Shown: positions 31,585 to 57,108, numbered from the stretch's first letter. The stretch: 64,000 nucleotides of DNA from Rhodococcus sp. X156 (GCF_004006015.1 NZ_CP034766.1:1397001-1461000); one strand, 5' to 3'. Notes: generated from the letters alone by a model not told the origin. Program-made: numbers and translations.

Positions 31585-33807
31585 GTGGCGCAGCTGACCG
31601 ACCCGCTGGGGCACGTGCTGGGGGAGAAGGCGGGCAAGGCCCTGGCCAAGACGCTGGACCTGCACACCGTGGACGACCTGCTGCGGCACTACCCGCGCCG
31701 CTACGCCGAGCGCGGCGAGCTGACGTCGATCGCCGGGCTGGAGGAGGACGAGCACGTCACGGTGATGGCGCGCATCGCCAAGGTGGACCTGCGCAAGATG
31801 CAGCAGCGTCGCGGCACCATCCTCACGCTCACCATCACCGACGGCCGGAGCGAGCTCACCTGCACCTACTTCAACCAGCCCCACCTGGCCAAGGAGCTCA
31901 CCCGCGGCCGGCGCGGGCTGTTCGCCGGCAAGGTCAGCCGCTACCGCCGGTCGCTGCAGCTGACCAACCCGCAGTACCTGCTGCTGCCCGACGACGACCA
32001 CCTCACCGCCAGCTCCTCGGAGGGCTCGGGGGTGCTGGGGCTGGCCGCGGTGCCCGACGAGCGCGACTTCACCCGCCCGCTGCTGCCGGTGTACCCCTCC
32101 GCGGCCGGGCTGCCGTCCTGGACGGTGGCGCAGTGCGTGCGGGTGGTGCTGGACGTGCTGGAGGAGCCGGTGGACCCGCTGCCGGAGCAGCTGCGCACCG
32201 AGCACCAGCTGGCGCCGCTGGGCCAGGCGCTGCGGGCGGTGCACCTGCCGGAGGACGAGGCCGAGCTGGCCGCGGCCCGCCAGCGGCTGCGCTTCGACGA
32301 GGCGCTGGCCCTGCAGCTGGTGCTGGCCCAGCGCCGCCACGCCGACACCGAGCGCAGCGCCCCGGCGCTGCCCCCGCGCCCGGACGGCCTCGCCGCCGCC
32401 TTCGAGCGCCAGCTGCCGTTCGCGCTCACCGAGGGCCAGCAGCAGGTGGGCGCGGAGGTGGCCGCCGACCTCGCCCAGACGCACCCGATGAGCCGGTTGC
32501 TGCAGGGGGAGGTGGGCTCGGGCAAGACGGTCGTCGCGCTGCGGGCCATGCTCGCCGCCGTGGACGCCGGCCGCCAGGCTGCGCTGCTGGCGCCCACCGA
32601 GGTGCTCGCCGCCCAGCACGCCCGCTCGCTGGCGGACATGCTCGGCCCGCTGGGTCGTGCCGGTGAGCTGGACAGCGCCGAGCAGGCCACCCGGGTCACC
32701 CTGGTCACCGGCTCCATGCCGACCGCGGCCAAGCGCCGGGCGCTGCTGGAGGTGGTCACCGGCGACGCCGGGATCGTGGTGGGCACGCACGCACTGATCC
32801 AGGACACCGTGCAGTTCTTCGACCTGGGCCTGGTGGTGGTGGACGAGCAGCACCGCTTCGGCGTGGAGCAGCGCGACGCCCTGCGCGAGCGTGGCCGCGA
32901 CGGCGCCACCCCGCACCTGCTGGTGATGACCGCCACCCCCATCCCGCGCACCGTGGCGATGACGGTGTTCGGTGACCTCACCGTCTCCACGCTGCGCGAG
33001 CTGCCCCGGGGGCGCTCACCGATCGCCAGCTCGGTGGTGCCGGTGCTGGAGAAGCCCGCCTGGCTGGATCGTGCCTGGGAGCGGGTGCGCGAGGAGGTGG
33101 CGGCCGGCAGGCAGGCCTACGTGGTGTGCTCGCGCATCGGCGACGACGGCTCGGCGGAGGACGAGGTGGCGGCCGCCAAGGGGGGCGAGGGCCCGGAGAC
33201 GTCGGCGGTGCTGGAGGTGGCGCCGGAGCTGGCGGCGGGACCGCTGGCGGGGTTGCGGGTGGAGGCCCTGCACGGGCGGCTGCCCAGCGACGAGAAGGAC
33301 GCCATCATGCGGGCCTTCGCCGGGGGCGAGATCGACGTGCTGGTGGCCACCACGGTGATCGAGGTGGGCGTGGACGTGCCCAACGCCACCACCATGGTGA
33401 TCATGGACGCCGAGCGCTTCGGCGTGAGCCAGCTGCACCAGCTGCGCGGCCGGGTGGGCCGGGGCGGGCACGCCGGGCTGTGCCTGCTGCTCACCAGCGC
33501 CGCGCCGGGCAGTCGTTCCCGCGAGCGCATCGAGGCCGTCGCCGCCACCACCGACGGGTTCGAGCTGGCCCAGCTGGACCTGGAGCAGCGCCGGGAGGGC
33601 GACGTGCTGGGCGTGGCGCAGTCCGGGCACAAGTCGTCGCTGCGGATGCTCTCGCTGCTGCGCGACACTGAGGTGATCGCCGCCGCCCGCGAGCAGGCGG
33701 AGCTGATCGTCGCTGGCGACCCCACCCTCCAGGCGCACCCCGGGCTGGCCGCGATGGTGACCTCAGCCCTGGACGGCGAGCGGGTCAGCTACCTGGTCAA
33801 GGCCTGA
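31585..33807 (+). CDS. recG: ATP-dependent DNA helicase RecG
   Basis: 740 aa. The N-terminal wedge/OB domain (about 1-260) is followed by superfamily-2 helicase domains: Walker A QGEVGSGKTVVALRA near residue 309, DEQH box VVVDEQHRFGVEQRD near 420, MTATPIPRTVAMTVFGDL near 452, and VATTVIEVGVDVPNATTMV near 590. It remodels stalled forks and Holliday junctions. GTG at 31585, just after the preceding stop. Confidence 0.97.
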   Translation: MAQLTDPLGHVLGEKAGKALAKTLDLHTVDDLLRHYPRRYAERGELTSIAGLEEDEHVTVMARIAKVDLRKMQQRRGTILTLTITDGRSELTCTYFNQPHLAKELTRGRRGLFAGKVSRYRRSLQLTNPQYLLLPDDDHLTASSSEGSGVLGLAAVPDERDFTRPLLPVYPSAAGLPSWTVAQCVRVVLDVLEEPVDPLPEQLRTEHQLAPLGQALRAVHLPEDEAELAAARQRLRFDEALALQLVLAQRRHADTERSAPALPPRPDGLAAAFERQLPFALTEGQQQVGAEVAADLAQTHPMSRLLQGEVGSGKTVVALRAMLAAVDAGRQAALLAPTEVLAAQHARSLADMLGPLGRAGELDSAEQATRVTLVTGSMPTAAKRRALLEVVTGDAGIVVGTHALIQDTVQFFDLGLVVVDEQHRFGVEQRDALRERGRDGATPHLLVMTATPIPRTVAMTVFGDLTVSTLRELPRGRSPIASSVVPVLEKPAWLDRAWERVREEVAAGRQAYVVCSRIGDDGSAEDEVAAAKGGEGPETSAVLEVAPELAAGPLAGLRVEALHGRLPSDEKDAIMRAFAGGEIDVLVATTVIEVGVDVPNATTMVIMDAERFGVSQLHQLRGRVGRGGHAGLCLLLTSAAPGSRSRERIEAVAATTDGFELAQLDLEQRREGDVLGVAQSGHKSSLRMLSLLRDTEVIAAAREQAELIVAGDPTLQAHPGLAAMVTSALDGERVSYLVKA

Positions 33808-33819
33808 GCGGGGGTCTGC

Positions 33820-34635
33820 TCACCCGCCGTACCGGGTGGAGGTCGGGCCCACGGGACCCGGACCCTGCGCGCTGGGGCGCCAGGTGGTGGCCTTGACCAG
33901 GTCGATCCCCAGGTCGTGACTGAGGACGCCGGCGCTGTTGAGCCCGGCGGAGTCGAACCAGGACTGGTCGGCCTCCGGGTGCGGGCCCACCACGCCCACC
34001 CGGCCGCTGCCGTAGGAGGAGACGACGGCGGCCGGCTCCCCGGTGAGGTAGGTGGCGATCACCTCGGCGTCGGCGCCGGGGGCGATCCGAAAGACCGGCC
34101 CGTCCTGGAAGTACATCCGCCGGGGCACCCCGCGCCATAGCACCGACACGATGGTGTCGCGGGTGGTCCGGACCGTGGCCCCGTCGAGGGTGACGTACTG
34201 CTCGGTGTCACCAGGCAGCAGCCGGAACCCCGGCGTCGCGCCCGCGAGGTAGCCGCCGAGGCAGAAGCCGAGGTAGCTGCCGCCCTGGCGGACCCATGCC
34301 CGGATCACCTCGGTGTCCGCACTGATCTCGTCCCACGCCGGGTCGAGGTTGGCGCCGCCGGGCTGGGCGTACGCCGTCGCCGTGGCCAGGGTGTCCGCGG
34401 ACAGCGACAGGTCCTCGTCGGGGCCCACGTACGAGGTGCGGAAGTGGGCGCTGCGCAGCAGCGCGGTGACCGCCTCGGGGCAGCCCGGGGTGGCCGCGGG
34501 CCCGCGGTACACCAGGGCGAGCGGGCCGCTGTCGCGGTCGATGCTCAGCACGCCCACCCCACCGGCCGCCGCCAGCACGCCGGCTCCGCCCAGGCCCAGC
34601 AGCAGCTGTCGTCGGGTGACCCGCGCCTCGCTCAC
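33820..34635 (-). CDS. Tat-exported amidotransferase-like protein (BPL_N fold), copy 2
   Basis: 271 aa. A twin-arginine signal (VTRRQLLLGLGGAGVLAAAG, residues 6-25) is followed by a class-I glutamine-amidotransferase-like domain of the biotin-protein-ligase N-terminal type. ALVYRGPAATPGCPEAV begins it near 39; TAYAQPGGANLDPAW follows. GSYLGFCLGGYLAGATPGF holds the likely nucleophile Cys, and VGVVGPHPEADQSWF closes it. It is clearly paralogous to the gene at 35987-36733 but is exported. Its GTG start overlaps the stop of the acyltransferase gene (GTGA). Substrate unknown; hydrolysis or amide transfer on the product of the upstream synthetase is an inference. Confidence 0.78.
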   Translation of the reverse strand: MSEARVTRRQLLLGLGGAGVLAAAGGVGVLSIDRDSGPLALVYRGPAATPGCPEAVTALLRSAHFRTSYVGPDEDLSLSADTLATATAYAQPGGANLDPAWDEISADTEVIRAWVRQGGSYLGFCLGGYLAGATPGFRLLPGDTEQYVTLDGATVRTTRDTIVSVLWRGVPRRMYFQDGPVFRIAPGADAEVIATYLTGEPAAVVSSYGSGRVGVVGPHPEADQSWFDSAGLNSAGVLSHDLGIDLVKATTWRPSAQGPGPVGPTSTRYGG

Positions 34636-35990
34636 CGCGGCGCCCACCGGTGCCGGGCCCGCTGCCGGTGCCGTCCGCCTGACCTGCGGGAGGGCGGTGC
34701 GGAGGCCACGGCGAGGACCCGGCGCCGCGCCCGGGTGGCGGCGCCGGTGGCCAGGGTCTCCAGCGGGCCGCGGCCGGCGATGGACCGCCACGCGAGTCCC
34801 AGCGCCAGCACCGCCACCACCTGCAGCAGGTAGCTGGTCATCGCGGGATAGGTGTCGTGGGCGGAGTTGATGAACATGAGGTGGACGGTGTACAGCGTCA
34901 GCGTCATCGTCCCGGCGGCCACGAGCGGCGCCTGCACCGCGCCGAGCACCCGGCGCACCGGCGGCCAGGCGAGGTGGCCCACCAGCAGCAGCACTCCGAT
35001 CACCGCCAGCGCCACCCCGGTGGTGGCGGCCAGGTCGAGCGGGGTGCTGGTGTGCGGCTTGTCCAGCGCGAGCCACCACCAGGTGGAGGTGGGGGTGGTG
35101 CCGTCGCCGCCGAAGACCAGCACGTCCTCGGTCTCGGAGGTGGTGAGGTTGCTGGCGTCCACCGCGGCACGGATGCGGTCCACCCCGCCGTAGGTGTGCA
35201 GCAGCAGCGAGGACGTGACCGCCGCGGCCACGGCGAGCACGAGCCCGCTGACCAGCGTCACGAGCGCCACCTTCGCCCGGCCCAGGGACAGGCGCCCCAG
35301 CACCAGTCCCGCGCAGAGGTAGGCCATCCACGGCAGCGCGGGGTACTCACCCACGAGCGTCACCTCCGCGAGCAGCTGGCCGGGACCCTGCACCAGGTCG
35401 CCGAAGCCTGGGTTGTCCAGCGACGGGGCGGGCAGGTGCGGCAGCAGCACGTGGGTCAGCGCGGGTCCCCCCACCGCCGCGACGACGCCTGCGCCGGCGA
35501 CCGCCCAGGTGGGCAGCAGGACCAGGGGAGCGACCAGGACGAACATCATCGCGTAGTACGGCAGGATCACCATGGCCAGCGAGGGGTCGGCGTAGCCCAG
35601 CAACAGACCGATGCAGCCGATGACCCCCGCCCGGGCGAGCAGCCCGACGGCGGTGGGAACCGCGGCCCCCCGTCGTACCCGGGCCCGGCCGGTCATGAAG
35701 GCGACGGACACCCCGGCGAGCACCGCGAACAGCGCGGCGGATCGCCCGCCGAAGACCAGGAAGCTCCAGGTGGGCGCACCAGTGTCCGGGTCGAAGTCGG
35801 GCAGGGCGTGGATGGCCATCATCCCGACGAGCGCGATGCCGCGCGCGGCGTCGATCCCGTTCAGCCGAGCCCGAGGGAGCTGACCCACCGCCCCCGGGCC
35901 TGCCGTGCGCGGCACGGGGGAGGGCCGGGGCGCCGGGGAGGGCCGCAGCGCCGTGGTCGGGGTGGCGCCCGTGCGCAGGGCGGCGGTCAC
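34632..35990 (-). CDS. Multi-pass acyltransferase (HGSNAT/DUF1624-like)
   Basis: 452 aa with a Pro/Ala/Arg-rich N-terminus, about ten hydrophobic segments and an Arg-rich cytosolic tail. The start of the fold, RLNGIDAARGIALVGMMAIH, is typical of heparan-alpha-glucosaminide N-acetyltransferase-like membrane proteins, with the conserved Arg and His. GTMTLTLYTVHLMFI near residue 375 is the closing motif. Such proteins move acyl groups across the membrane onto an outside acceptor. It is placed between two paralogous amidotransferase-like genes and overlaps both by GTGA, so all share one transcript. Confidence 0.8.
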   Translation of the reverse strand: MTAALRTGATPTTALRPSPAPRPSPVPRTAGPGAVGQLPRARLNGIDAARGIALVGMMAIHALPDFDPDTGAPTWSFLVFGGRSAALFAVLAGVSVAFMTGRARVRRGAAVPTAVGLLARAGVIGCIGLLLGYADPSLAMVILPYYAMMFVLVAPLVLLPTWAVAGAGVVAAVGGPALTHVLLPHLPAPSLDNPGFGDLVQGPGQLLAEVTLVGEYPALPWMAYLCAGLVLGRLSLGRAKVALVTLVSGLVLAVAAAVTSSLLLHTYGGVDRIRAAVDASNLTTSETEDVLVFGGDGTTPTSTWWWLALDKPHTSTPLDLAATTGVALAVIGVLLLVGHLAWPPVRRVLGAVQAPLVAAGTMTLTLYTVHLMFINSAHDTYPAMTSYLLQVVAVLALGLAWRSIAGRGPLETLATGAATRARRRVLAVASAPPSRRSGGRHRQRARHRWAPR

Positions 35991-36733
35991 GGGGACATCA
36001 CCGCGTCGACCAGGGCGAGCCCGAGGTCCTGCCCGCGGGCGGCGGCGGCGTCCCGCCGCCGGCGGCCGGGGTCGGGCAGCCCCGCGTCGGTGAACCAGTC
36101 CCTGGTGGCCTCCGGGTGCGGGCCGACCACGCCGACCCGGCCGGCGCCGTACCCGGTGACCAGGGCGGCCACCGTCCCGTTCGGGTAGGTCGCCATCACC
36201 GTGGTCCCCTCGTCGGCAGAGATCTCGAAGTGCGGGCCGTCCTGGAAGAACAGCACTCGCCGGTCGTCGCCCCAGCAGACCTCCACCAGGGTGTCGTCGG
36301 TGGTGCGCACGGTGGCCCCACGGCTCACCACGTACTGGTCGGTGTCGCCGGGCAGCAGCTTGAACCCCGGCGTGGCGCCCGCGAGGTATCCGCCGAGGCA
36401 GAAACCGAGGTACCGGCCACCGCCCTGGACGTACCCGCGGATGTCGTGCCGGTGCTTGCGCAGCCGGCGGTAGGCGGGCCCCAGGTCGGCGCCCCCCGGC
36501 TGCGCGTACACCGCCGCCCCCGCCAGGGTCGCGGCGCTGAGGGGATGCGGCTCGTGGGGTCCGACGTAGCGCACCGCGAAGCCCCAGCGGCTGGCGCTGA
36601 GCAGCTCGGCGACCGCCTCGGAGCAGCCGGGCACCGAGGCAGGTCCGCGGTACACCAGCGCCAGCGGTGCGCCGTCGGGCCCGGCCCGCGTGGCCTCCGG
36701 CTCCGCGCTGGTGCGCCCGAGCCACCGCCTCAT
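35987..36733 (-). CDS. Cytosolic amidotransferase-like protein (BPL_N fold), copy 1
   Basis: 248 aa. Same domain as the Tat-exported paralogue: ALVYRGPASVPGCSEAVAEL near residue 28, VYAQPGGADLGPAYRRL near 80, GRYLGFCLGGYLAGATPGF near 110 with the candidate Cys, and VGVVGPHPEATRDWF near 210. It has no signal peptide (MRRWLGRTSAEPEATRAG), so it should stay in the cytosol. ATG at 36733 overlaps the stop of the synthetase gene (ATGA). Function unknown beyond the fold; a role in handling the synthetase product is inferred. Confidence 0.78.
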   Translation of the reverse strand: MRRWLGRTSAEPEATRAGPDGAPLALVYRGPASVPGCSEAVAELLSASRWGFAVRYVGPHEPHPLSAATLAGAAVYAQPGGADLGPAYRRLRKHRHDIRGYVQGGGRYLGFCLGGYLAGATPGFKLLPGDTDQYVVSRGATVRTTDDTLVEVCWGDDRRVLFFQDGPHFEISADEGTTVMATYPNGTVAALVTGYGAGRVGVVGPHPEATRDWFTDAGLPDPGRRRRDAAAARGQDLGLALVDAVMSP

Positions 36734-39700
36734 CGCGCTGCCCCCGCAGCCGCCAGCAGGCCGGTGCCTGCCTGCCCGCCGCTCGGCAGCCGGTCCACCG
36801 CCTGGGCGGGGATGCCCCGCCACTCGGTGGTGGCGGGCAGGTGCTCGCCCTTCATCACCAGCGACAGCGACCCGAGCGAGACGTCACGCTCGACCACGGC
36901 GTCGTAGAGCACCACCGCCCGGGTGCCGACGGTGGCCCCCGCTTCGACGGTGACCACCGACATCTTCATCACGCGGTCCTCGAACAGGTGCGTCTGCAGC
37001 GACACCTCGGTCCCGATGACGGCGTCGTCACCGATCTCCACGAGGTCGAACTCGGTGAGGTAGGTGGTGCCGATCCAGGTGCCGCGACCGACCTTGGCGC
37101 CGAACGCGCGCAGCAGCGGAGGCAGGAAGGGAGTTCCCACCAGCATCCCCACGGCGGCCGGGACCGCGGCCGCCTCGTAGAGGCCGGTGACCAGCTCGCT
37201 GTGGCGGACCGTGCGGCTCCACAGCGGTTCCACGCGGGGGCGGTAGGTGCCGATGAAGTTGCGCTTGACCGCCACGCAGAAGGCCACCACCGCGAGCCCG
37301 GACAGGATGGTCATGAGGGGGGAGACCAGCGCGGGCACCGCGATGTCCCGACCGCGGGTGACGTCGGAGAGCACCCACAGGTACAGGTAGAAGCTCACGC
37401 CCAGCACGGATGCGGGCAGGGTGGCCCGCAGGAGCTCGATGAGCAGGCGGTGGCGCACCACCGGGCGGGTGGGCCGGAAGGTGAGCTCCTCGGGGAAGGA
37501 GCCGCTGTCCTGGCGCACCGGCAGCCGCATGGCGGGGGAGCCCAGCCACGACGTCCCCGGCGGCACCCCGGACTCCGGGGGCGCCGTGCAGACCCCGACC
37601 AGGGAGCCGTCGCCCATGCTGGCACCCGCCGCGACGACGGCCGCGTTGCCCACGAACGAGCGCGCGCCGATCTCGGTGCGCTGGAACATCACCCGTCCCC
37701 CCACGAAGGTGGCGGCACCGAGGCTGGCCATGTCGGCCACGAAGCTGTCGTCGCCGAGCGTGAGCAGGTCGGGGTCGAGGTGCGCGGCGGTGGACACCTC
37801 GGCACCGCGGCCGATGTCGGCACCGAGCAGCCGCAGCCACGGCGCCGTGTACAGCGTGGCGTACAGCGAGTTGGTGAACATCAGGCTGAACTCGATGAGT
37901 TTGTCCGCCAGCCACTTGCGCACGCCCAGCCCCGAGCGCAGCGGGTGCGCCCCCAGGGGCAGGCTCGGCAGGATCACCCGCTTGCCCACCAGCACCACCG
38001 CGCACACGGTGAGCACGAAGACGGGCCCGGCCAGCAGGGTGGCCAGCAGCCCGGCGATGACCCCGAAGGCCAGCAGCGCCCACCACACCAGAGCCACGCT
38101 GGGCACGATCATGGCGATGGCGGCGATCTCGAGGGCGAAGGCGCCGACGGCCACCGCCGCGAGCTGCCCAGGCCGCCAGCCGTCGCGGCAGGGCTCGTCC
38201 ACCAGCATCGACTCCACGGTCACCGACAGCCGGTCGACGGGCTCCGCCGGCGACCCCGCGTACCGGTGGCCGGCAGGGACCGTCTCGCCGTCGCTGAGCA
38301 CCGACAGCTCGCCCAGGGCGGCCTCGGCCTGCACCGTCGCGCCGGGGTCCAGCACTGCCTGGGCACCGACGAAGGCGTCGCTGCCGATGGTGATCGGCTC
38401 GACGACCACCCAGCCGTCCTCCACCCGCCACGGGTTGAGGGACACGCCGTAGCCCACGGCCGCGCGGTCGCCGATGCGCAGCATGCTGGGCAGGCTGATC
38501 GCGCTGGTGGCGATCTGCGCGTGCGTGCCGATCTTGGCGCCGAGCAGCCGCAGGTACGGCGCGGCCAGCGGTGAGCCGCTGAGCACGGGCAGCGGGCTGA
38601 TGGACAGCAACAGGTTCAGCGACCAGATCCGGAGGTAGGTGACACCCCAGAGCTTGTACCGGCCCGGTCTGATTCCGGCCACCATCAGCCGACCGACCAG
38701 GATGGGCAGGACCCAGCGCACGTTGAGGTAGCTGACGAGGATCGCGACCAGCAGCTGGGCCAGCACCTGGACGGAGACGAAGCCGTCGTTCTCGGTGTAG
38801 ACGTAGACCACCGGGAGGGTCACCACCAGCAGCAGCAGGTAGATGGACGCCGCCTGCCAGCCGCCGGCGACCGCGATGCGCCGGGTGCTGTGCCGCAGCG
38901 CCCGCGGCCGCGGACGGGTAGGTGCCGTGCGGTGGCCCGACCGGGCGGCGAGCTGGGTGGCCATGCCCCGCACGGTGGGGTGGTCGTAGAGGTCGCGCAG
39001 CGCCACCCCCGCGCTCTCCGGCACCTCCCGCAGGCGGGAGACCACCTGCGCGGCGAGCAGCGAGTGGCCTCCGAGGTCGCTGAAGAAGTTCGCCTCCACC
39101 GAGAGCGCCTCGGGCTCGAGCCCGAGCGCCGCAGCCCAGGCGGTGCGCACCTGCTCCTCCACCGGGCCCTCCGGCTCCACCACGGGCCCGCCGCGCAGCG
39201 CCAGGCGACGGGCGGGTCGGGGCAGCCTGGTGCGGTCGACCTTGCCGCTGGGCATCGTGGGCAGGGCGCTCACGACGTCGAGGAACACGGGCACCATGTA
39301 CGCGGGCAGCCGCTGGACGAGCTGCTCGTGCAGACGCTCGGTGAGCACGTCGCGGGGCACCTCGACCCCAGCGCCCTGCACCACGTAGGCGGCCAGCTCG
39401 CCGGAGGAGGCGGCGTCGGCAGGGTCGGCGCTCAGCGCCACCACGGCTTCGGTCACCGCCGGGTCCTCGAGCAGCACGCTCTCGATCTCGCCGAGGTCGA
39501 CGCGGTGCCCACGGATCTTCACCTCGGCGTCGGCGCGGCCGTGGTACTCCAGCTCGCCCTCCGGCGTCAGGCGCCCGAGGTCGCCAGTGCGGTAGAGCCG
39601 GCCCGGCGCCGGCGCCAGCCGGTGGTGGACGAAGCGGTCGGCGGTCAGGTCGGGCCGGCCCACGTATCCGAGGGCCACGCCAGGGCCCCCGATGCAGATC

Positions 39701-40794
39701 TCGCCGATCTCTCCGGGCGCCACCTCGGCGCGGTCGTCGTCGAGCAGCACCACGGTGTAGGTGGGCAGCGGCCTGCCGATGGTGACGCGAGCACGGGGCA
39801 GCAGCTCGGCGACGGTCGCGGTGACGGTGGCCTCGGTGGGGCCGTAGGTGTTGAGCATCCGGCGCCCGGGCCTGCTCCACCGCTCCACCAGCTGCGCGGG
39901 GCACGCCTCGCCGCCGACCAGCACGCTGCGCAGGCGGGGCAGGTCGCGCGGGATGGTGGCCAGCAGGGTGGGCACGCAGTACAGGACGGTGACGCCGGCG
40001 TCGTCCAGGAAGTCGGCGAGCTCGGCACCCAGCCGGCGGGAGTCGGTCGGTCCCACGACGAGGGCCGCGCCGACCGCCCAGGTGGGCCAGATCTCCTCGA
40101 TGGAGAAGTCGAAGGAGATGGTCATGCCTTGGTACACGCGGTCGACCGGACGGACGTCGTAGACCTGGGGCACCACGCGCAGGAAGTTGCAGATGCTGGA
40201 CTGGGCGATCTGCACGCCCTTGGGGCGTCCGCTGGACCCGGAGGTGTACATCACGTAGGCGACCGGGTCGGCCCCGTCCGGGTCTGGATCGTCACCGACG
40301 CGGGGCACCGGGCGGCGCCGGTGCGAGGGGGACAGCTCGATGGGCGCGCGGTCGGTGTCGACCTCAATTGTGGTGCACGCCAATGCGGGAAGGGCACTCG
40401 ACAGCGAGGACGACGTGACCACGAACTCGACTCCCGCGTCGGCGATGATGAATGCCACGCGATCGGCCGGCGCTGCGGGGTCAATCGGAACAAATGTGTT
40501 GTCCGCCTTGCCAATCGCCAGCAGTGCGACGTAGGTGTCGAGTGATCGGTGCAGAAGAATGGCTGTCCGTGCACCCGGCCTGACGCCGCGTGAGACGAGG
40601 TGGTGGGCCAACCGGTTTGCTCTCGCCTCGAGCTCGGCGTAGCTGACCAAGACCCCCTCCCAGTCCACAGCGGTGCTGAGAGGCGTTCTGTCGCAAGTTA
40701 TCTCAAAGAACTGGTGGAGTCGCTGCGCAGTCTTGGCGACCGGTCTTGCAGCGGTTGCGGCACGAGCAGCCCCTTGCGAGACGGGTGTGTTCAT
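36730..40794 (-). CDS. Pls/PosA-type membrane nonribosomal peptide synthetase
   Basis: 1354 aa. Residues about 20-510 are an adenylation domain: YVMYTSGSSGRPKGVQIA near 183, TYGPTEATVTATVAEL, YRTGDLGRLTPEG, KIRGHRVDLGEIE and PTMPSGKVDRTRLP. A carrier domain follows (FFSDLGGHSLLAAQVVSRL, attachment Ser near 577). There is no condensation or thioesterase domain. From about 640 come six hydrophobic spans alternating with left-handed beta-helix segments (LLGAKIGTHAQIATSAISL, LLGADIGRGAEVSTAAHL, FGAKVGRGTWIGTTYLTEF), the terminal layout of epsilon-poly-lysine synthetase. It probably makes a homopoly(amino acid) at the membrane. The monomer is not assigned. ATG at 40794 has AAGGAG 5 bases upstream. 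Confidence 0.88.
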   Translation of the reverse strand: MNTPVSQGAARAATAARPVAKTAQRLHQFFEITCDRTPLSTAVDWEGVLVSYAELEARANRLAHHLVSRGVRPGARTAILLHRSLDTYVALLAIGKADNTFVPIDPAAPADRVAFIIADAGVEFVVTSSSLSSALPALACTTIEVDTDRAPIELSPSHRRRPVPRVGDDPDPDGADPVAYVMYTSGSSGRPKGVQIAQSSICNFLRVVPQVYDVRPVDRVYQGMTISFDFSIEEIWPTWAVGAALVVGPTDSRRLGAELADFLDDAGVTVLYCVPTLLATIPRDLPRLRSVLVGGEACPAQLVERWSRPGRRMLNTYGPTEATVTATVAELLPRARVTIGRPLPTYTVVLLDDDRAEVAPGEIGEICIGGPGVALGYVGRPDLTADRFVHHRLAPAPGRLYRTGDLGRLTPEGELEYHGRADAEVKIRGHRVDLGEIESVLLEDPAVTEAVVALSADPADAASSGELAAYVVQGAGVEVPRDVLTERLHEQLVQRLPAYMVPVFLDVVSALPTMPSGKVDRTRLPRPARRLALRGGPVVEPEGPVEEQVRTAWAAALGLEPEALSVEANFFSDLGGHSLLAAQVVSRLREVPESAGVALRDLYDHPTVRGMATQLAARSGHRTAPTRPRPRALRHSTRRIAVAGGWQAASIYLLLLVVTLPVVYVYTENDGFVSVQVLAQLLVAILVSYLNVRWVLPILVGRLMVAGIRPGRYKLWGVTYLRIWSLNLLLSISPLPVLSGSPLAAPYLRLLGAKIGTHAQIATSAISLPSMLRIGDRAAVGYGVSLNPWRVEDGWVVVEPITIGSDAFVGAQAVLDPGATVQAEAALGELSVLSDGETVPAGHRYAGSPAEPVDRLSVTVESMLVDEPCRDGWRPGQLAAVAVGAFALEIAAIAMIVPSVALVWWALLAFGVIAGLLATLLAGPVFVLTVCAVVLVGKRVILPSLPLGAHPLRSGLGVRKWLADKLIEFSLMFTNSLYATLYTAPWLRLLGADIGRGAEVSTAAHLDPDLLTLGDDSFVADMASLGAATFVGGRVMFQRTEIGARSFVGNAAVVAAGASMGDGSLVGVCTAPPESGVPPGTSWLGSPAMRLPVRQDSGSFPEELTFRPTRPVVRHRLLIELLRATLPASVLGVSFYLYLWVLSDVTRGRDIAVPALVSPLMTILSGLAVVAFCVAVKRNFIGTYRPRVEPLWSRTVRHSELVTGLYEAAAVPAAVGMLVGTPFLPPLLRAFGAKVGRGTWIGTTYLTEFDLVEIGDDAVIGTEVSLQTHLFEDRVMKMSVVTVEAGATVGTRAVVLYDAVVERDVSLGSLSLVMKGEHLPATTEWRGIPAQAVDRLPSGGQAGTGLLAAAGAAR

Positions 40795-41288
40795 CGAGCT
40801 CCTTGTCGAGCGGAGTTCTGGTGGAGCGCACCCCGGCAATGCGCAGCCCTCCGCTGCGCGCGTCCCGCCAAGAATGGGGGAGCCCGCCGCAGGAGAGCCT
40901 GTTTCGGGCGCAAATCTAGCGCATGAGGACCACGTTAAACAACAGAAAAACCCGCACGAACAAATGCTCACGCAAAGTGCACCGTGGGCTACCTGACGTG
41001 CATATGGACGAGTCAAGAAAATGTGCTCAGGCAACCTCTCAGGAGCACAATGTCACACCATTGTTTACGCTGTGCTGAACAATTTGACGGCCTCGCTGCC
41101 GGCGGTGTGAGTGCGCGGAGGTTCGTCCACGGTGGGGCCGTGGGTGTTTCGCACGGACCGGGTGCCGCGACCATCCTCGGGCGGTCCCGTTCTGTCCGTG
41201 GGTATCACCGAGGGTGGTCGAGATGACAGTGGGTGAGCCTTCCGGAACACGCCACCACACGCAGCTGCGCCCACCGGCCCCGAGGCGG
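40795..41288. other. Non-coding region upstream of the synthetase operon, AT-rich core with inverted repeats
   Basis: No coding signal is supported here. About 40,910-41,095 is clearly lower in GC than its surroundings and holds runs such as GTTAAACAACAGAAAAAC. It contains GTGCTC / GAGCAC (41023-41028 and 41043-41048) and ACAATG / CATTGT (41047-41052 and 41059-41064). Read on the minus strand, TTGACT at about 41010-41015 could be a -35 box; no good -10 is seen. The part from 41,100 to 41,288 shows nothing I can name. Confidence 0.6.
41047..41064. promoter_or_regulatory. Inverted repeat ACAATG-N6-CATTGT, possible operator for the synthetase operon
   Basis: ACAATGTCACACCATTGT is a perfect 6-bp inverted repeat within the AT-rich promoter region, next to a second pair (GTGCTC/GAGCAC). 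Position about 250 bp upstream of the synthetase start suggests control of that operon; the binding protein is unknown. Confidence 0.4.
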
Positions 41289-41726
41289 TCAGGGGTGCCG
41301 GGCGGTGCGCCGCAGCCACCACAGGCCCAGCACCGGCAGCACCAGCGGGACGAACCCGTAGCCGGCGCCGAAGTCCGACCACACGGTGGCGTCGGGGAAG
41401 GCGTCCGGGAACACCAGGCTGGCCGTGCCCACCGCCAGCACGCCCACCAGCTCCGCCGTGATCGCCGTGGTGGCCAGCCGTCGGGACAGCGCGCCGCCCC
41501 GGGCCAGGGTGACCGTGGCCAGCACGTAGATCAGCGCGGCGAGCGCGGAGAGGGAGTACGCCAGCGGAGCGCGGTCGAGCTGGGTGCCCAGCTGCACGAC
41601 CGAGCGGGCCGTCGCGGAGAGGGCGAAGATCGCGTACACGGCGATGAGCAGGCGGCCGGGGCCGCTGCGAGTGGCGGCGGCCCGGGTGCGCGGCGCGGCG
41701 GGGGTGTCACCCCAGCGCTCAGGCAC
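41289..41726 (-). CDS. Small integral membrane protein, unknown function
   Basis: 145 aa with four predicted membrane helices: LLIAVYAIFALSATARSVV, LAYSLSALAALIYVLATVTL, a third around TAITAELVGVLAVGTASLVF, and FVPLVLPVLGLWWL. I do not recognise the family. GTG start at 41726, overlapping the end of the next upstream membrane-protein gene by 8 bp, so the two are co-translated and may form a complex. Confidence 0.75.
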   Translation of the reverse strand: MPERWGDTPAAPRTRAAATRSGPGRLLIAVYAIFALSATARSVVQLGTQLDRAPLAYSLSALAALIYVLATVTLARGGALSRRLATTAITAELVGVLAVGTASLVFPDAFPDATVWSDFGAGYGFVPLVLPVLGLWWLRRTARHP

Positions 41727-42123
41727 CGTAGCCCGACCAGATTTGGTTCATCCGGACCACCAGCACCGGGATGACCAGGCACCCCACCATCAGCACTCCC
41801 ACGCCCCACCGGCTCCGCTCGGCCAGCGACCACCACCCGGCCGCCGGCAGGATCAGCAGCGCGCCCAGCAGGTAGCCCACGAAGGTGGCGCTGGCGATGT
41901 GCCGGTGCTCCCCGAAGATCTTGCTGATGCCGACCACCGCCTGGACCACCAGCGCCACCTCGACCAGGGCGAGCCAACCCAGCAGCAGCCGGTGGCCCTT
42001 GGGGCCGCTGAGCATGAGCATGACCAGACACCACAGCGCCCCGAGCAGGGCGCCGACCGAGATGGTGCCGGAGAGCAGCCCCGTCACTGCCCGCGCTTCC
42101 TCATGCCGGTCAGTATCGGCCAT
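41719..42123 (-). CDS. Small integral membrane protein, unknown function
   Basis: 134 aa with four predicted helices: LLSGTISVGALLGALWCLVM, LLLGWLALVEVALVVQAVVG, FVGYLLGALLILPAAGWWSL and VGVLMVGCLVIPVLVVRM. The N-terminus MADTDRHEEARAV is charged and probably cytosolic. No recognised family. The frame is open further upstream to 42234 but that part looks non-coding. It is divergent from pyc and coupled to the other membrane gene. Confidence 0.72.
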   Translation of the reverse strand: MADTDRHEEARAVTGLLSGTISVGALLGALWCLVMLMLSGPKGHRLLLGWLALVEVALVVQAVVGISKIFGEHRHIASATFVGYLLGALLILPAAGWWSLAERSRWGVGVLMVGCLVIPVLVVRMNQIWSGYGA

Positions 42124-42276: not shown

Positions 42277-45200
42277 ATGTTCCAGAAGGTGCTAGTTGCC
42301 AACCGTGGCGAGATCGCCATCCGTGCCTTTCGTGCGGCCTACGAGCTGGGGGCGGGCACCGTCGCCGTCTTCGCCTACGAGGACCGCAACTCCGGCCACC
42401 GGATGAAGGCCGACGAGAGCTACCAGATCGGCGAGGAGGGCCACCCCGTCCGGGCGTACCTCTCGGTGCCCGACCTCATTGCGGTGGCCCAGCGCTGCGG
42501 CGCCGACGCCATCTACCCCGGGTACGGCTTCCTCTCCGAGAACCCCGACCTGGCGGCGGCCTGCGCCGAGGCCGGAATCACCTTCATCGGCCCCTCCGCC
42601 GAGGTCCTCGAGCTCACCGGGAACAAGGCGCGGGCCATCGCCACGGCCCGGGAGGCCGGCCTGCCGGTGCTGGCGTCCAGCGAGCCCACCGACGACGTGG
42701 AGCAGCTGCTGGCGGTCGCCGAGGACATGACCTTCCCGGTGTTCGTCAAGGCGGTGGCCGGGGGTGGCGGGCGCGGCATGCGCCGGGTGATCGAGCCGGC
42801 GGACCTGCGGGAGAACATCGAGGCCGCCATGCGGGAGGCGGAGTCAGCCTTCGGCGACGCCACCGTGTTCCTGGAGCAGGCGGTGCTCAACCCCCGCCAC
42901 ATCGAGGTGCAGGTGCTCGCCGACGGCCAGGGCAACGTCATCCACCTCTACGAGCGCGACTGCTCGGTGCAGCGTCGCCACCAGAAGGTGCTGGAGATGG
43001 CACCGGCGCCCAACCTGGACCCGGCCCTCCGCGAGCGGATGTGCAACGACGCGGTCAGCTTCGCCACCGCCATCGGCTATTCCTGCGCGGGCACTGTGGA
43101 GTTCCTGCTGGACGCCGACGGCAACTACGTCTTCATCGAGATGAACCCCCGCATCCAGGTGGAGCACACGGTCACCGAGGAAGTCACCGACGTGGACCTG
43201 GTGCAGGCGCAGATGCGGGTGGCCGCGGGGGAGTCGCTGGCCGACCTGGGCCTGGCGCAGGAGGACATCGTCCTGCACGGTGCCGCGGTGCAGCTGCGGA
43301 TCACCACCGAGGACCCCAACAACGCCTTCCGCCCGGACACCGGTCGCATCACCGCCTACCGCTCGCCGGGCGGCGCGGGGGTGCGGCTGGACGGCGGCAC
43401 CACCCTGGGCGCCGAGGTCGGCGCCTACTTCGACTCGATGATGGTCAAGCTGACCTGCCGCGGCCGCGACTTCGACACCGCCGTGGCCCGGGCACGACGG
43501 GCGGTCACCGAGTTCCGCATCCGCGGGGTGTCCACCAACATCCCCTTCCTGCAGTCGGTGCTGGAGGACCCGGACTTCCGGGCCGGGCGCGTCACCACCT
43601 CCTTCATCGAGGAGCGCCCCCAGCTGCTCAACGCCAACGCCTCCGCCGACCGCGGCACCAAGCTGCTCACCTACCTGGCCGACGTCACGGTGAACCAGCC
43701 CAACGGCGAGGTGCCGGTGGCGGTGGACCCGCTGGAGAAGCTGCCCGCGATCGACCTGGACGCACCGCCGCCGGACGGCTCCCGCCAGCGGCTGCTGCGG
43801 CTGGGCCCGGAGGGCTTCGCCGCCGACCTGCGGGCGCAGAAGGCCCTCGCCGTCACCGACACCACGTTTCGCGACGCCCACCAGTCGCTGCTGGCCACCC
43901 GGGTGCGCACCAAGGACATGCTGGCGGTGGCCGGCCACGTCGCCCGGATGACGCCGCAGCTGCTGAGCCTGGAGGCGTGGGGCGGCGCCACCTACGACGT
44001 GGCGCTGCGGTTCCTGGCCGAGGACCCGTGGGACCGGCTGGCCGACCTGCGCGAGGCGGTGCCCAACATCTGCCTGCAGATGCTGCTGCGCGGACGCAAC
44101 ACCGTGGGCTACACCCCCTACCCGGAGCGGGTGACCGACGCCTTCGTGGCCGAGGCGGCCAGCACCGGCATCGACATCTTCCGGATCTTCGACGCCCTCA
44201 ACGACGTGGACCAGATGCGCCCGGCCATCGACGCCGTGCGCGCCACCGGCACCGCGGTCGCCGAGGTGGCGCTCTGCTACACCGGCGACCTGTCCGACCC
44301 GGCGGAGAAGCTCTACACCCTGGACTACTACCTGGGCCTGGCCGAGCAGATCGTGGCGGCCGGTGCGCACGTGCTGGCCATCAAGGACATGGCCGGGCTG
44401 CTGCGTGCCCCGGCTGCCGCCACCCTGGTGGGCGCGCTGCGGGAGCGGTTCGACCTGCCGGTGCACGTGCACACCCACGACACCGCCGGCGGCCAGCTGG
44501 CCACCTACCTGGCCGCTGCCGAGCACGGTGCCGACGCGGTGGACGGCGCCATGGCCTCCATGGCCGGCACCACCAGCCAGCCCGCGCTCTCGGCCATCGT
44601 GGCGGCCACCGACCACACCCCGCGGGCCACCGGCCTGGACCTGCAGGCGGTGTGCGACCAGGAGCCGTACTGGGAGGCGGTGCGCCGGGTCTACGCGCCG
44701 TTCGAGGCCGGGCTCAGCGCACCGACGGGACGGGTCTACCACCACGAGATCCCCGGCGGGCAGCTGTCCAACCTGCGCCAGCAGGCCATCGCGCTGGGGC
44801 TGGGGGAGCGCTTCGAGGAGGTCGAGGCGATGTACGCCGGGGCCGACCGGATGCTCGGCCACCTGGTCAAGGTGACCCCCTCGTCCAAGGTGGTGGGCGA
44901 CCTCGCCCTGCAGCTGGTCGGCGCGGGGGTGTCGGTGCAGGACTTCGAGGCCGACCCCAAGCGCTTCGACATCCCCGACTCGGTCATCGGTTTCCTGCGC
45001 GGCGAGCTGGGCGTGCCCCCTGGTGGCTGGCCCGAGCCGTTCCGCACCCGCGCGCTGGAGGGTCGGGCGGAGGCCGAGCCCACGCCCGAGCTGACCGCCG
45101 AGGACGAGCAGCAGCTGCGGGACGCTCCGCGGGAGACCCTCAACCGGTTGCTCTTCGCCGGGCCCACCCGGGAGTTCGTCGAGCACCGCGAGCAGTTCGG

Positions 45201-45647
45201 CGACACCTCGGTGCTCGCCAGCGGGGAGTTCTTCTACGGGCTGCGCTACGGCGCCGAGCACGAGGTGGAGCTGGAGCCCGGGGTGCGCCTGCTGATCGGC
45301 CTGGAAGCGATCTCCGACCCCGACGAGCGGGGCATGCGGTCGGTGATGTGCACCCTCAACGGGCAGCTGCGCCCGGTGCAGGTGCGCGACCACAGCGTCG
45401 CCTCGGACGCCCCGGTGACCGAGAAGGCCGACCGCGCTGTCCCCGGGCACGTGGCTGCACCCTTCGCCGGCGTGGTCACCCTGTCGGTGCAGGAGGGTGC
45501 CGAGGTTGCCGAGGGTGACCCGATCGGCACCATCGAGGCCATGAAGATGGAGGCCGCCATCAGCGCGCCGGTGGCCGGCACGGTCAAGCGGGTGGCGCTG
45601 AGCGGGGTCTCCCCGGTGGAGGGCGGCGACCTGCTCGTGGTTCTGGA

Positions 45648-45651
<4 letters not shown>
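42277..45651 (+). CDS. pyc: Pyruvate carboxylase
   Basis: 1124 aa, ATP- and biotin-dependent conversion of pyruvate to oxaloacetate (anaplerosis). Biotin carboxylase at about 1-460 (KVLVANRGEIAIRAFRAA, GGGGRGMRRV, EMNPRIQVEHTVTEEV); carboxyltransferase barrel from about 525 (VTDTTFRDAHQSLLATRVR); C-terminal biotinyl domain with IEAMKMEAAI near 1087, whose Lys carries biotin. ATG at 42277 with GAGAGGCGAG upstream. Its stop overlaps the rsmD GTG. Confidence 0.98.
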
Positions 45652-49288: not shown

Positions 49289-50275
49289 GTGCCCGAGCTG
49301 CCCGAGGTCGAGGTGGTCCGTCGCGGCCTCGTCGAGCACGTGGTCGGCCACGTCGTGGAGTCCGTCGAGGTTCGCCACCCCCGCGCGGTGCGGCGCCACC
49401 TCGCCGGCGCCGACGACCTCGTGCTCGGCCTGCTCGGCGCGCGCCTGGTCAGCGCCGACCGTCGGGGCAAGTACCTGTGGCTGCAGGCCGACACCGTCGA
49501 GCGCGGTCGGCAGGCCGTGGTGGTGCACCTGGGCATGAGCGGGCAGATGCGAGTGCAGCCGGTGGGCGCCCCGGACGAGAAGCACCTGCGCATCCGGGTG
49601 CGGCTGCGGGCCACCGCCGACGAGCCGGCCAGCGAGCTGCGGTTCGTGGACCAGCGCACCTTCGGCGGCTGGGCGGTGGAGGAGCTGGAGCCGGTGGACG
49701 GCGTCCTGCTGCCCCGGCCGGTCACCCACATCGCCCGCGACCCCCTGGACCCCGACTTCGATGCCGAGGCCGTGGTGACCGCGATGCGGCGCAGGCACAC
49801 CGAGGTCAAGCGGGCGCTGCTGGACCAGACCCTGGTCTCCGGCATCGGCAACATCTACGCCGACGAGGCCCTGTGGCGCGCCCAGCTGCACGGCCGGCGC
49901 CCCACCGACCGGCTCAGCCGCGCCCAGGCCCGCGAGCTGCTCAGCCGGGCCGCCGAGGTGATGCGCGAGGCGCTGGCCCAGGGTGGGACGTCCTTCGACG
50001 CGCTCTACGTCAACGTCAACGGTGACTCCGGCTACTTCGACCGCTCGCTGGCGGCCTACGGCCAGGCGGGCCGGCCGTGCCCGCGGTGCGGGCACAGCAT
50101 CGTGCGGGAGAGCTTCATGAACCGCTCCTCGTTCAGCTGCCCGTCCTGCCAGCCGCCCCCGCGGGCCCGTCGCAGCAGCAGCCGGACACCCACCGGCCTC
50201 AGCTCCGCCGGCGGTGCGGCACGAACTCCAGCACCAGGAACGCGGCCAGCACGAACGCCACCTGGCGCAGCCTGA
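49289..50275 (+). CDS. mutM: Formamidopyrimidine-DNA glycosylase
   Basis: 328 aa. The N-terminal [13 protein letters not shown] gives catalytic Pro and Glu after Met removal. Other family features are [12 protein letters not shown] near residue 70, [20 protein letters not shown] near 178, and a C-terminal zinc finger CPRCG...CPSCQ (about 264-289). It excises oxidised purines. The roughly 40-residue Pro/Ala/Ser/Arg tail after the finger is unusual, and its last 77 bp overlap the convergent DUF2156 gene. GTG start touches the rnc stop (TGAGTG). Confidence 0.95.
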
Positions 50276-51467
50276 CCATCGCGAACCGCTGTCCGTCCAG
50301 CGCCCGGAACTTGCGCACGAAGCGGTACAGCGACTCGATGCGGATCAGCGGGTCGAGCAGGTGGGTGGCGACGTACACCGCCTGCTGGCCCGCCCCCCGG
50401 TGGGTGGACTCGAAGATCTCCGGGAACGCCGCGAACGCCAGCGACACCTTCTCCCCGCCGTGCTCCTTGCCGTGGTGCACCATGTCCACGCTGAGCCGCT
50501 CGTCCACCCCGTTGGGGGCGTCGGCGGAGCGGTAGGGCACGTCCAGGGTGAGCATGCGGCCCTCGTCGGCCGTGGCGTAGCGGTGGAACGCCACCGCCCG
50601 CCCCTCGGCGTCGCGGGCGATGGCCAGCAGGATGCCCGGCGTCCGGCCGTCGAGCAGGTGGTCCAGGATCATCGAGAAGCCCCGGTTGGCGTGCCGGTGG
50701 TCGCTACTGGCGACGAGCCGGCGCAGCTCGGCCAGCGTCTCCTTGTCCAGGCCCCGCTCGGAGCGGACCTCGGTGGTGATCCCCGCGTTGTGGGTGCGCT
50801 GCACCGCCTGGCGGAGGTTGCGCCACTGCCGGCCCTGCAGGGTGAAGGAGGCGACGTCGATCACCACGTCACGCCCGATGGGCACCGTCCGCAGCCCGTG
50901 CCTGCTCCACAGCGGTGCGCAGTACTCGCCGGCGGCGAGCACCGCCACCCGCCAGCCGTTGCTGCGGCAGTGCGCCTGGAACTCCTCGATGAGGTCGGCG
51001 AAGTCGGTGCGCTCGCCCACCGGGTCCCCGGCGACGGCGGCGATGCCCAGGCGGGCCCGGTAGCCGAGCGCCGCGGTGCCGTCGCTGTTGAAGAAGTAGC
51101 CCTTGGCCGAGTGCATCACGAAGGGCGCCAGCGGGTCGTCCCGGGAGCGGTTGACCAGTGCGAAGACCCGGCCCAGCTCCTCGGGCGCGGCCTTGGTCGT
51201 CTTGGGGAACACCAGCACGGCACCGGCCAGGGCCAGGGCGATGAAGCCCAGCACCCCGCGGCCGCTGTCGTAGGCCAGCCGGGCGATGACCGCCAGCGCG
51301 ACGGCGCCGAGCACGTGGTTGCGGGTGAGCGGCCGCCGCAGGTAGAGCCCGCGCAGCAGGAAGAAGATGGCCAGGCCGAGCGCGTAGGGCCAGGACCACT
51401 GCAGGTCGCCGAGGCGTCCGACGGTCTGGTCCTGGGTGGTGTCCAGGAACGAGGCGAGCCCGCTCAC
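50199..51467 (-). CDS. DUF2156 aminoacyltransferase-like membrane protein
   Basis: 422 aa. Two or three N-terminal helices ([45 protein letters not shown]) precede a DUF2156 domain like the C-terminal catalytic part of MprF/lysyl-phosphatidylglycerol synthetase: [36 protein letters not shown] and [20 protein letters not shown]. It lacks the many-helix flippase part. Aminoacyl transfer to a lipid is plausible but the substrate is not shown. GTG at 51467 overlaps the stop of the zinc-motif protein (GTGA). Its 3' end overlaps mutM. Confidence 0.85.
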
Positions 51468-51661
51468 CCGGGATCCTGGCGCTTCTTGACCTCCAGGATG
51501 GCCGCGGGCACCCGGCCGTCGGCGTCGATCGGGGTCCACGGCTCGCTGGGCACCCACTGCGAGCCGCACCCGGCACAGACGTGCAGGTCTTCCTCCGCGC
51601 GGCTGGCCCGCCAAGAACACAGCGAGCGGCAGGCGTTGACGACCAACCCGCGCTGTCCCAC
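51464..51661 (-). CDS. Small cysteine-motif protein coupled to the DUF2156 gene
   Basis: 65 aa: MGQRGLVVNACRSLCSWRAS, then HVCAGCGSQWVPSEPWTPID, ending in [11 protein letters not shown]. Cys-x3-Cys and Cys-x2-Cys form a likely zinc ribbon. I do not recognise a named family. GTG at 51661; GTGA overlap with the DUF2156 gene suggests the two act together. It faces acyP, 18 bp away. Confidence 0.65.
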   Translation of the reverse strand: MGQRGLVVNACRSLCSWRASRAEEDLHVCAGCGSQWVPSEPWTPIDADGRVPAAILEVKKRQDPG

Positions 51662-51679
51662 CCCTGCAGAATAGGCGGC

Positions 51680-51976
51680 ATGCCTGATCCGACGACCGAC
51701 ACGCTTCCCGTCCGCCTCGCCGCATGGGTGCACGGTCACGTGCAGGGCGTCGGCTTCCGCTGGTGGACCCGCTCGAGGGCGCTGGAGCTGGGCCTGGTGG
51801 GCAGCGCCAGCAACCAGCGCGACGGTCGGGTGCTGGTGGTCGCCGAGGGCCCCCGCGCGCAGTGCGAGCAGCTGCTGCAGGCGCTGCGCGGGGGCGCGAC
51901 CCCGGGCGCCGTGGACACCGTGGTGCACACCTGGGAGCCGGCGCGCGGCGGCCTGCACGGCTTCGTGGAGCGGTAG
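51680..51976 (+). CDS. acyP: Acylphosphatase
   Basis: 98 aa. [19 protein letters not shown] (residues 14-32) holds the phosphate loop and catalytic Arg; [17 protein letters not shown] has the catalytic Asn. It hydrolyses carboxyl-phosphate bonds. Located just before smc, as in mycobacteria. Confidence 0.95.
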
Positions 51977-51983
51977 CGCCGGG

Positions 51984-51989
51984 TACCGT
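51984..51989 (+). promoter_or_regulatory. Probable -10 element (TACCGT), leaderless start for smc
   Basis: TACCGT fits TANNNT and ends 6 bases before the GTG start of smc at 51996; no Shine-Dalgarno is visible. Confidence 0.45.
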
Positions 51990-51995
51990 TCCCTG

Positions 51996-54900: not shown

Positions 54901-55583
54901 ACGACCGCGCCACCCAGGAGCAGCGGGTGGCCCGCGCCGAGCGGGACCTGCGCACCCTGGGCAAGGTGAACCCGCTGGCGCTGGAGGAGTTCGCCGCCCT
55001 GGAGGAGCGCTACCAGTTCCTGGCCACCCAGCTGGAGGACGTCAAGGCCACCCGCAAGGACCTGCTGGGCGTGGTCGCTGACGTGGACCGACGGATCCTG
55101 GAGGTGTTCACCGCGGCCTACCACGACGTGGCGGCGGAGTTCGGCGCCGTGTTCGCCACGCTGTTCCCCGGCGGGGAGGGCCGGCTGGTGCTGACCGACC
55201 CCGACGACATGCTCACCACCGGCATCGAGGTGGAGGCGCGTCCACCGGGCAAGCGGGTCAAGCGGCTGTCCCTGCTGTCCGGCGGTGAGAAGTCGCTGAC
55301 CGCGGTGGCCATGCTGGTCGCGATCTTCCGGGCGCGGCCGTCGCCGTTCTACGTGATGGACGAGGTGGAGGCGGCGCTGGACGACACCAACCTGCGGCGG
55401 CTGATCACCTTGTTCGAGCAGCTGCGGGAGCGCTCCCAGCTGATCGTCATCACCCACCAGAAGGCGACCATGGAGGTTGCCGACGCCCTGTACGGGGTGA
55501 GCATGCGGGGGGACGGCATCACCACCGTCATCTCCCAGCGGATGCGCAGGCAGCCCACGGGCGAGCCGGCACCCGCCGGCTAG
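51996..55583 (+). CDS. smc: Chromosome segregation protein SMC
   Basis: 1195 aa. Walker [21 protein letters not shown] is near residue 31. Ala/Glu/Arg-rich coiled coils (about 170-490 and 670-1000) flank a hinge (about 500-660, [20 protein letters not shown]). The signature [14 protein letters not shown] lies near 1094 and Walker [14 protein letters not shown] near 1118. It forms a dimer that, with ScpA and ScpB, organises the chromosome. GTG start with leaderless signature. Confidence 0.97.
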
Positions 55584-55653
55584 TCCCGCCCTGTCGCCCG
55601 GGGGCCTCCTCCCCACTGGGCCGTTAGGGTCTCGGCGGCCGGCGACTGGCACG

Positions 55654-57108
<1,455 letters not shown>

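Follow-up and report, generated by a model that had tools for sequence, protein, structure and literature searches.

Results and Discussion

Organization of the operon

The window analysed here, that is the whole stretch of 64,000 nucleotides from Rhodococcus sp. X156, carries on its minus strand four open reading frames (33820-40794) joined, in operon order, by ATGA, GTGA and GTGA overlaps. The first gene (36730-40794), preceded by a ribosome-binding site, AAGGAG, ahead of its ATG (40799-40804), encodes a pls-like membrane synthetase of 1354 aa with an A-T-C1/C2/C3 architecture: an adenylation domain (residues ~30-525; 39220-40707), a carrier (PP-binding, PF00550) domain with an LGGHS motif (38956-39156) and a C-terminal Pls/PosA region (36805-38838) in which, according to TIGR02353, Hexapep and hydropathy, membrane segments alternate with hexapeptide beta-helix segments. 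Only AMP-binding, PP-binding and hexapeptide/beta-helix models are matched in Pfam, with no condensation or thioesterase domain. A preliminary description of this DNA had listed the adenylation, carrier and beta-helix parts, which Pfam also finds, but it counted six membrane segments where a simple hydropathy scan gives seven.

The second gene (35987-36733), linked to pls by the ATGA overlap, encodes a cytosolic protein of 248 aa with a putative C112/H206/E208 triad; the third (ACYLTRANSFERASE; 34632-35990) encodes a transmembrane acyltransferase of 452 aa resembling HGSNAT, YeiB and AT3 proteins of the TmAT superfamily; and the fourth (33820-34635) encodes a paralogue of the second product with a putative C124/H218/E220 triad and a twin-arginine signal, TRRQLLLGLGGAGVLAAAGGVGVLSI (34540-34617), whose equivalents are present in relatives. 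Both small proteins match BPL_N (PF09825) in Pfam. Open reading frames and domains thus reproduce exactly the operon first described, with a synthetase, a cytosolic and a Tat-exported BPL_N protein and a transmembrane acyltransferase. Promoter and terminator scans gave no signal above chance.

The operon lies in a 7.5-kb accessory segment (33806-41315), which runs from recG to a small membrane-protein gene. In another genome of the same genus (G411, whose locus L147 was aligned to the window), 54 bp separate recG from the counterpart of window position 41316, so the segment was either inserted here or lost in G411. Two small minus-strand genes between the operon and a pyruvate carboxylase gene (41289-41639 and 41719-42087) have no Pfam match and are membrane-protein-like. 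At the position of the pyruvate carboxylase (42277-45651), the sequence of G411 is unrelated and contains an open frame of 903 aa (L147, 7787-11158). About 10 kb from the operon, a minus-strand open frame of 1836 aa (50199-55709), whose true start may be further in, matches in its C-terminal part lysyl-phosphatidylglycerol synthase, a cationic-peptide resistance function.

The synthetase and its clade

The part of the synthetase that follows the adenylation and carrier domains matches TIGR02353 (Pls/PosA) over 680 residues with 544.8 bits, above the cutoff of 423.1, in agreement with the earlier view that the architecture is that of Pls and its relatives. With this C-terminal region as query against 351 genomes of the family and 395 of the class, matches were bimodal, a widespread set having ~30-37% identity and a rarer one 56-64%. 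At lower-GC loci, where our simple GC-based gene caller performed poorly and some starts were mis-set, we relied on tblastn and stop-to-stop profile searches. Clades a and b split with full SH-aLRT support in a tree built by a quick method. From the alignment, the adenylation code is DAESIGTVVK at the 30 loci of clade a (lysine-type) and DFEY[L/I/V]GTVTK at the 23 loci of clade b, the window included. The lysine-type synthetases are widespread and adjoin a PldII-type M1 peptidase, and the clade b genomes represent at least four families. The code of the window synthetase in full is DFEYLGTVTK, and the pocket residues D, F, E, T and V proposed beforehand were right. As an A-T-membrane enzyme of the Pls/PosA family, the synthetase belongs to a clade of its own with a near-invariant, non-lysine code.

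The same genome (one contig of 3.72 Mb) contains a second Pls-family gene (C1:626215-629949; L002/L068), 34-37% identical, with the lysine code DAESIGTVVK and followed by a PldII-like M1 peptidase gene. The host therefore has an ordinary epsilon-poly-lysine-type locus in addition to the clade b operon. Like the epsilon-poly-L-lysine systems of Streptomyces albulus and Corynebacterium variabile, made of Pls and PldII, the operon has an A-T-membrane synthetase with three beta-helix segments, and a degrading enzyme (here a putative one) coupled or adjacent to pls. It differs in the code (DAESIGTVVK in lysine-type loci), in the C-terminal region (~30-37% identical), in the partner, which is a zinc M1 peptidase there and a BPL_N cysteine protein here, and in the acyltransferase, which those systems lack.

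The closest outside branch that was sampled (G911, L066) is a distant relative at the base of clade b, with code DFECLSAVTK and an adjacent Dab-transaminase-like gene; it looks like the gamma-poly-diaminobutyrate kind, as in published poly-Dab loci with dat. Split Pls-type synthetases, in which a C-terminal half of 813-844 aa without A domain is accompanied by a separate A-T gene, were seen at L085 and L087 (G384, G396) and at L131 (G1018). L085, in the Streptomyces group, also has Dap-type genes of the PALP (cysteine-synthase-like) and OCD (ornithine-cyclodeaminase-like) kinds, a TauD dioxygenase and an HGSNAT-like acyltransferase related to the one in the window, and G1018 has SbnB above cutoff near its split synthetase gene. 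The split loci are candidates for a Dap polymer system.

Distribution and order of the partner genes

A BPL_N protein was found in 22 of 22 clade b genomes and in 0 of 23 control genomes, G911 being one of the controls (Fisher p ~2e-13, kinship between genomes being ignored). The co-occurrence of partners in genomes, which had been put forward as a check on the operon, is therefore observed for this family. BPL_N is directly downstream of pls at 22 of the 23 sampled clade b loci, while in the exception (G534) pls and a signal-less BPL_N are at different places in the genome; none was found at the clade a loci examined. An exported copy is nearby at 16 of the 23 loci. The order pls, cytosolic BPL_N, acyltransferase and exported BPL_N, all on one strand, is shared by the window, L049, L050, L053 and L055-L058, and, allowing for one additional gene, by Kutzneria (L010), Fodinicola (L011) and Dactylosporangium (L127). 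Since the gene set is conserved across other genomes, its arrangement is not due to chance. An inside/outside BPL_N pair is nevertheless usual rather than universal, because G1018 and G1023 have the cytosolic copy but no exported one, and in G534 the synthetase and BPL_N genes are apart. The preliminary description had also remarked that these partners are not those known for Pls, and this is correct, the known partner being the M1 peptidase PldII.

Other details of these loci were observed. One genome (G464; L049-L050) has two clade b operons. At L055-L057 a LuxR-type AAA regulator (828 aa in L055, of similar size in L056 and L057) stands between an extra BPL_N and pls. In the assembly of Prescottella defluvii (L009/L059), which is scored 79% complete, both the pls frame and that of the acyltransferase are in pieces.

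The BPL_N proteins

The two BPL_N proteins of the window are 57% identical. In a tree of 58 BPL_N domains, the copies coupled to pls cluster together (94/77) and have no signal, while those not coupled to it (further downstream, upstream, divergent or solo) appear, as judged by eye, to begin with a signal of the Tat, Sec or lipoprotein type; one solo copy is truncated at its start. Solo copies are present in Streptomyces, Williamsia, Kribbella and Rhizobium genomes without a clade b synthetase, and in two genomes, those of Dactylosporangium and S. carpinensis, a copy stands apart from the clade b synthetase. The relatives without linked pls (L012-L017 and L019-L022, Rhizobium included) mostly have export signals; they are possible polymer-degrading or resistance enzymes, and solo exported copies in genomes without clade b pls are what would be expected in that case.

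The name of the family refers to biotin ligase, and a pyruvate carboxylase gene (42277-45651) lies upstream of the operon in the window, so that a tie between the BPL_N genes and biotin could be imagined. Only positions 4-102 of the 283 in the BPL_N profile are matched and the biotin ligase catalytic domain is absent from both proteins; moreover, neighbouring genes vary among relatives, and here the operon is an accessory segment. We consider this tie to have practically no chance of being real and rejected it.

Searching PDB by sequence, with proteins and profiles of both BPL_N and the acyltransferase as queries, returned nothing significant, and a fold comparison was needed. The predicted structure of the exported BPL_N (pLDDT 87.4) has a class-I glutamine amidotransferase fold, the Pdx2 and HisH subunits being closest, and gamma-glutamyl peptidase 1, a hydrolase, is also among its structural matches. 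In the alignment C124 and E220 of this paralogue are invariant and H218 nearly so, and together they form an apparent, putative class-I amidotransferase triad, although such a Cys-His-Glu set would fit glutaminase or other thiol chemistry equally well.

The preliminary description had called these proteins amidotransferase-like. If both were glutamine amidotransferases amidating the polymer or its precursor, the nearest folds and the kept putative triad would be accounted for. However, they are encoded without an ATP-using acceptor domain or partner, exported and solo copies would have neither ATP nor acceptor, several hosts of solo exported copies lack any clade b pls, and a hydrolase is found among the structural matches. 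Glutamine-dependent amidation is thus improbable, and less likely than hydrolysis, given that most non-coupled copies are exported, that several are solo in genomes without clade b pls and that none has a synthetase domain.

The replacement of genes at four loci bears on this point. In four g288 genomes (L061-L064), an M1 peptidase follows the cytosolic BPL_N in place of the acyltransferase and exported BPL_N; it was identified by Pfam for L061 and by the zinc motif HELAHQWFG...E in all four. Its signal is clear in L061 and partial in L063 and L064, while in L062 the called start is inside the gene. PldII is located on the outer side of the membrane, its translation is coupled to that of pls, and it guards S. 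albulus against the self-made polymer (PMC9223678; see also PMC8117764). It is mainly because a PldII-like M1 peptidase takes the place of the exported BPL_N that we read the BPL_N pair as polymer-degrading.

A different division of labour would leave degradation to the exported copy alone and make the cytosolic one a trans-acting off-loading or chain-length enzyme that frees the polymer from the carrier. The cytosolic protein has no signal, its gene directly follows pls at 22 of 23 loci, and in the window its start codon and the stop codon of pls overlap; in addition, the Pls/PosA family has no thioesterase, and release of PDAP by its own synthetase is an open question (PMC4668381). On the other hand, recombinant Pls polymerises in vitro without such a partner (PMC9606270), lysine-type Pls loci have no cytosolic BPL_N, and the cytosolic copy is close kin of the exported one at 57% identity. 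We regard an off-loading role as unlikely.

Enzymes with an amidotransferase-like fold that hydrolyse isopeptide bonds, in inside and exported forms, are known among cyanophycinases and gamma-glutamyl hydrolases. Cyanophycinase, however, is a Ser enzyme and does not appear in the list of structural matches of BPL_N, which does include a gamma-glutamyl peptidase, and the comparison is one of analogy only.

The acyltransferase

The third gene product matches HGSNAT_cat (PF07786) and, marginally, Acyl_transf_3 in Pfam. Human HGSNAT structures are the only confident PDB matches of its AlphaFold model (pLDDT 87.9), with TM ~0.4-0.5 and E 0.003-0.02. Residues D47, R50 and H61 (35808-35852) are invariant in 20 aligned sequences and spaced as DxxRx10H, which has been reported as a motif of AT3 enzymes in the TmAT superfamily (PMC12423673). 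The model and the alignment show a predicted TmAT fold together with the DxxRx10H motif, features shared with HGSNAT, YeiB/DUF418 and AT3 proteins. We know of no TmAT relative in a homopoly(amino acid) operon.

HGSNAT N-acetylates an amine across the membrane with acetyl-CoA from the cytosol, and therefore acylation of the amines of an emerging polymer is plausible by analogy, an envelope target being equally possible. A putative capping of the polymer by this enzyme is likewise plausible. The gene is present at 17 of the 23 clade b loci and, being absent at the other 6, it is not essential.

The monomer

A published rule associates Phe at code position 2 with the short diamino acids Dap and Dab, Met with ornithine and Ala with lysine (PMC10522769). 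The window synthetase has at this position not the Ala of the lysine pocket but Phe, a trait of poly-Dab and poly-Dap synthetases under that rule. Epsilon-poly-L-lysine, which the preliminary description implied as the product, would agree with the family and architecture shared with Pls; however, the position that sets chain length holds Phe instead of Ala (PMC10522769), and a separate lysine-coded Pls exists in the same genome with its own PldII-type peptidase, found at the paralogue locus L068 and not in the window operon. This product is very improbable and was rejected.

SbnB, for Dap synthesis, and lysine aminomutase were both not found in the host genome, and with this Dap and beta-lysine were discarded as the monomer of this host. 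The synthetase of beta-poly-diaminopropionate (PDAPs) is similar in Phe at position 2 and in architecture, unlike the window system in that SbnB-type Dap synthesis is missing from the present host. L-Dab would be available through an EctB-type transaminase encoded outside the operon, at what looks like an ectoine locus, as judged by gene order and size only. Gamma-poly-diaminobutyrate systems (pddA-D; pldA-dat-ask) have in common with the window Phe at code position 2, as in Dap/Dab-type enzymes. They differ in having dat and ask, plus a racemase for the D form, none of which is in the window operon, and G911 lacks BPL_N. No dedicated monomer genes, of the dat/ask or SbnA/SbnB type, were found in the window operon, but since the published monomer genes for PDAP are unlinked to the synthetase as well, this absence weighs mainly against a Dab locus of known kind.

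It is also conceivable that the monomer is specifically ornithine, derived from arginine where a DDAH/arginine-dihydrolase-like gene lies between pls and BPL_N. A gene of this size is in that place at four loci (L010:2517-3329, L011:6956-7756, L065:8040-8813 and L127:10251-11063); those of L010 and L065 match DDAH in Pfam, those of L065 and L127, 70% identical to each other, resemble dimethylargininase/arginine dihydrolase below cutoff in NCBIfam, and that of L011 is assigned by position and size only. Four f95/g288 clade b genomes have no Dab transaminase above cutoff, and f95/g288 clade b genomes have no supply enzyme for Dab, Dap or beta-Lys above cutoff, so a primary metabolite seems to be needed there. 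Against ornithine, the window has no DDAH-like gene and its genome no homologue, and PosA, the delta-poly-L-ornithine synthetase, has Met at code position 2. PosA is similar in family-level architecture and in the D and E pocket residues, and differs in its code (DMEHNGTVSK) and in its single-gene operon without partners. With all else as in our preferred reading below, ornithine as the specific monomer is possible but rather doubtful. The clade b genomes without Dab transaminase and the loci with a DDAH-like gene keep it in consideration; the code and gene content suggest that Dab and ornithine are both viable as monomer, lysine being disfavoured.

Proposed function

Our preferred reading, offered tentatively although we find it quite possible, is that the operon makes a secreted cationic isopeptide homopolymer of a short alpha,omega-diamino acid and protects the host from it. 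The synthetase would build this polymer most likely from 2,4-diaminobutyrate or ornithine, and not from lysine. The BPL_N proteins would be cysteine hydrolases that cut the isopeptide bonds of the polymer, one on each side of the membrane, the pair filling the role that the M1 peptidase PldII has for epsilon-poly-lysine. With cytosolic acyl-CoA as donor, the TmAT enzyme may add acyl groups to the free amines of the emerging polymer, or else to a target in the envelope, and so lower charge or self-toxicity.

A further-reaching version of this proposal, more speculative and in our opinion somewhat unlikely, is that the BPL_N pair represents a new class of poly(amino acid) isopeptidases, unrelated to M1 peptidases and active on both membrane faces, that solo exported copies have spread as resistance or scavenging enzymes, and that the product is an N-acylated, previously unreported homopolymer.

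Conclusions

Among homopoly(amino acid) systems the operon represents a conserved variant. Its architecture and gene linkage are established here, while its product, the action of the BPL_N proteins as hydrolases and the acylation are inferred. In the open-access library searched, we found no earlier description of such a variant, of the clade codes, or of BPL_N with poly-amino-acid clusters. Cationic homopolymers known from microbes are few; their uses, actual or under study, are as preservatives, antifungals and carriers. Clade b forms a coherent branch, as yet uncharacterised, in which the non-lysine code is fixed and the partners recur, and its product can be sought in Prescottella defluvii, Rhodococcus triatomae, Fodinicola feengrottensis and Dactylosporangium roseum. 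The BPL_N family, whose biotin-ligase name misleads, gains a testable function, which may also give enzymatic access to the release of the polymer, the control of its length and self-resistance, all of them open questions for synthetases of the Pls/PosA family.
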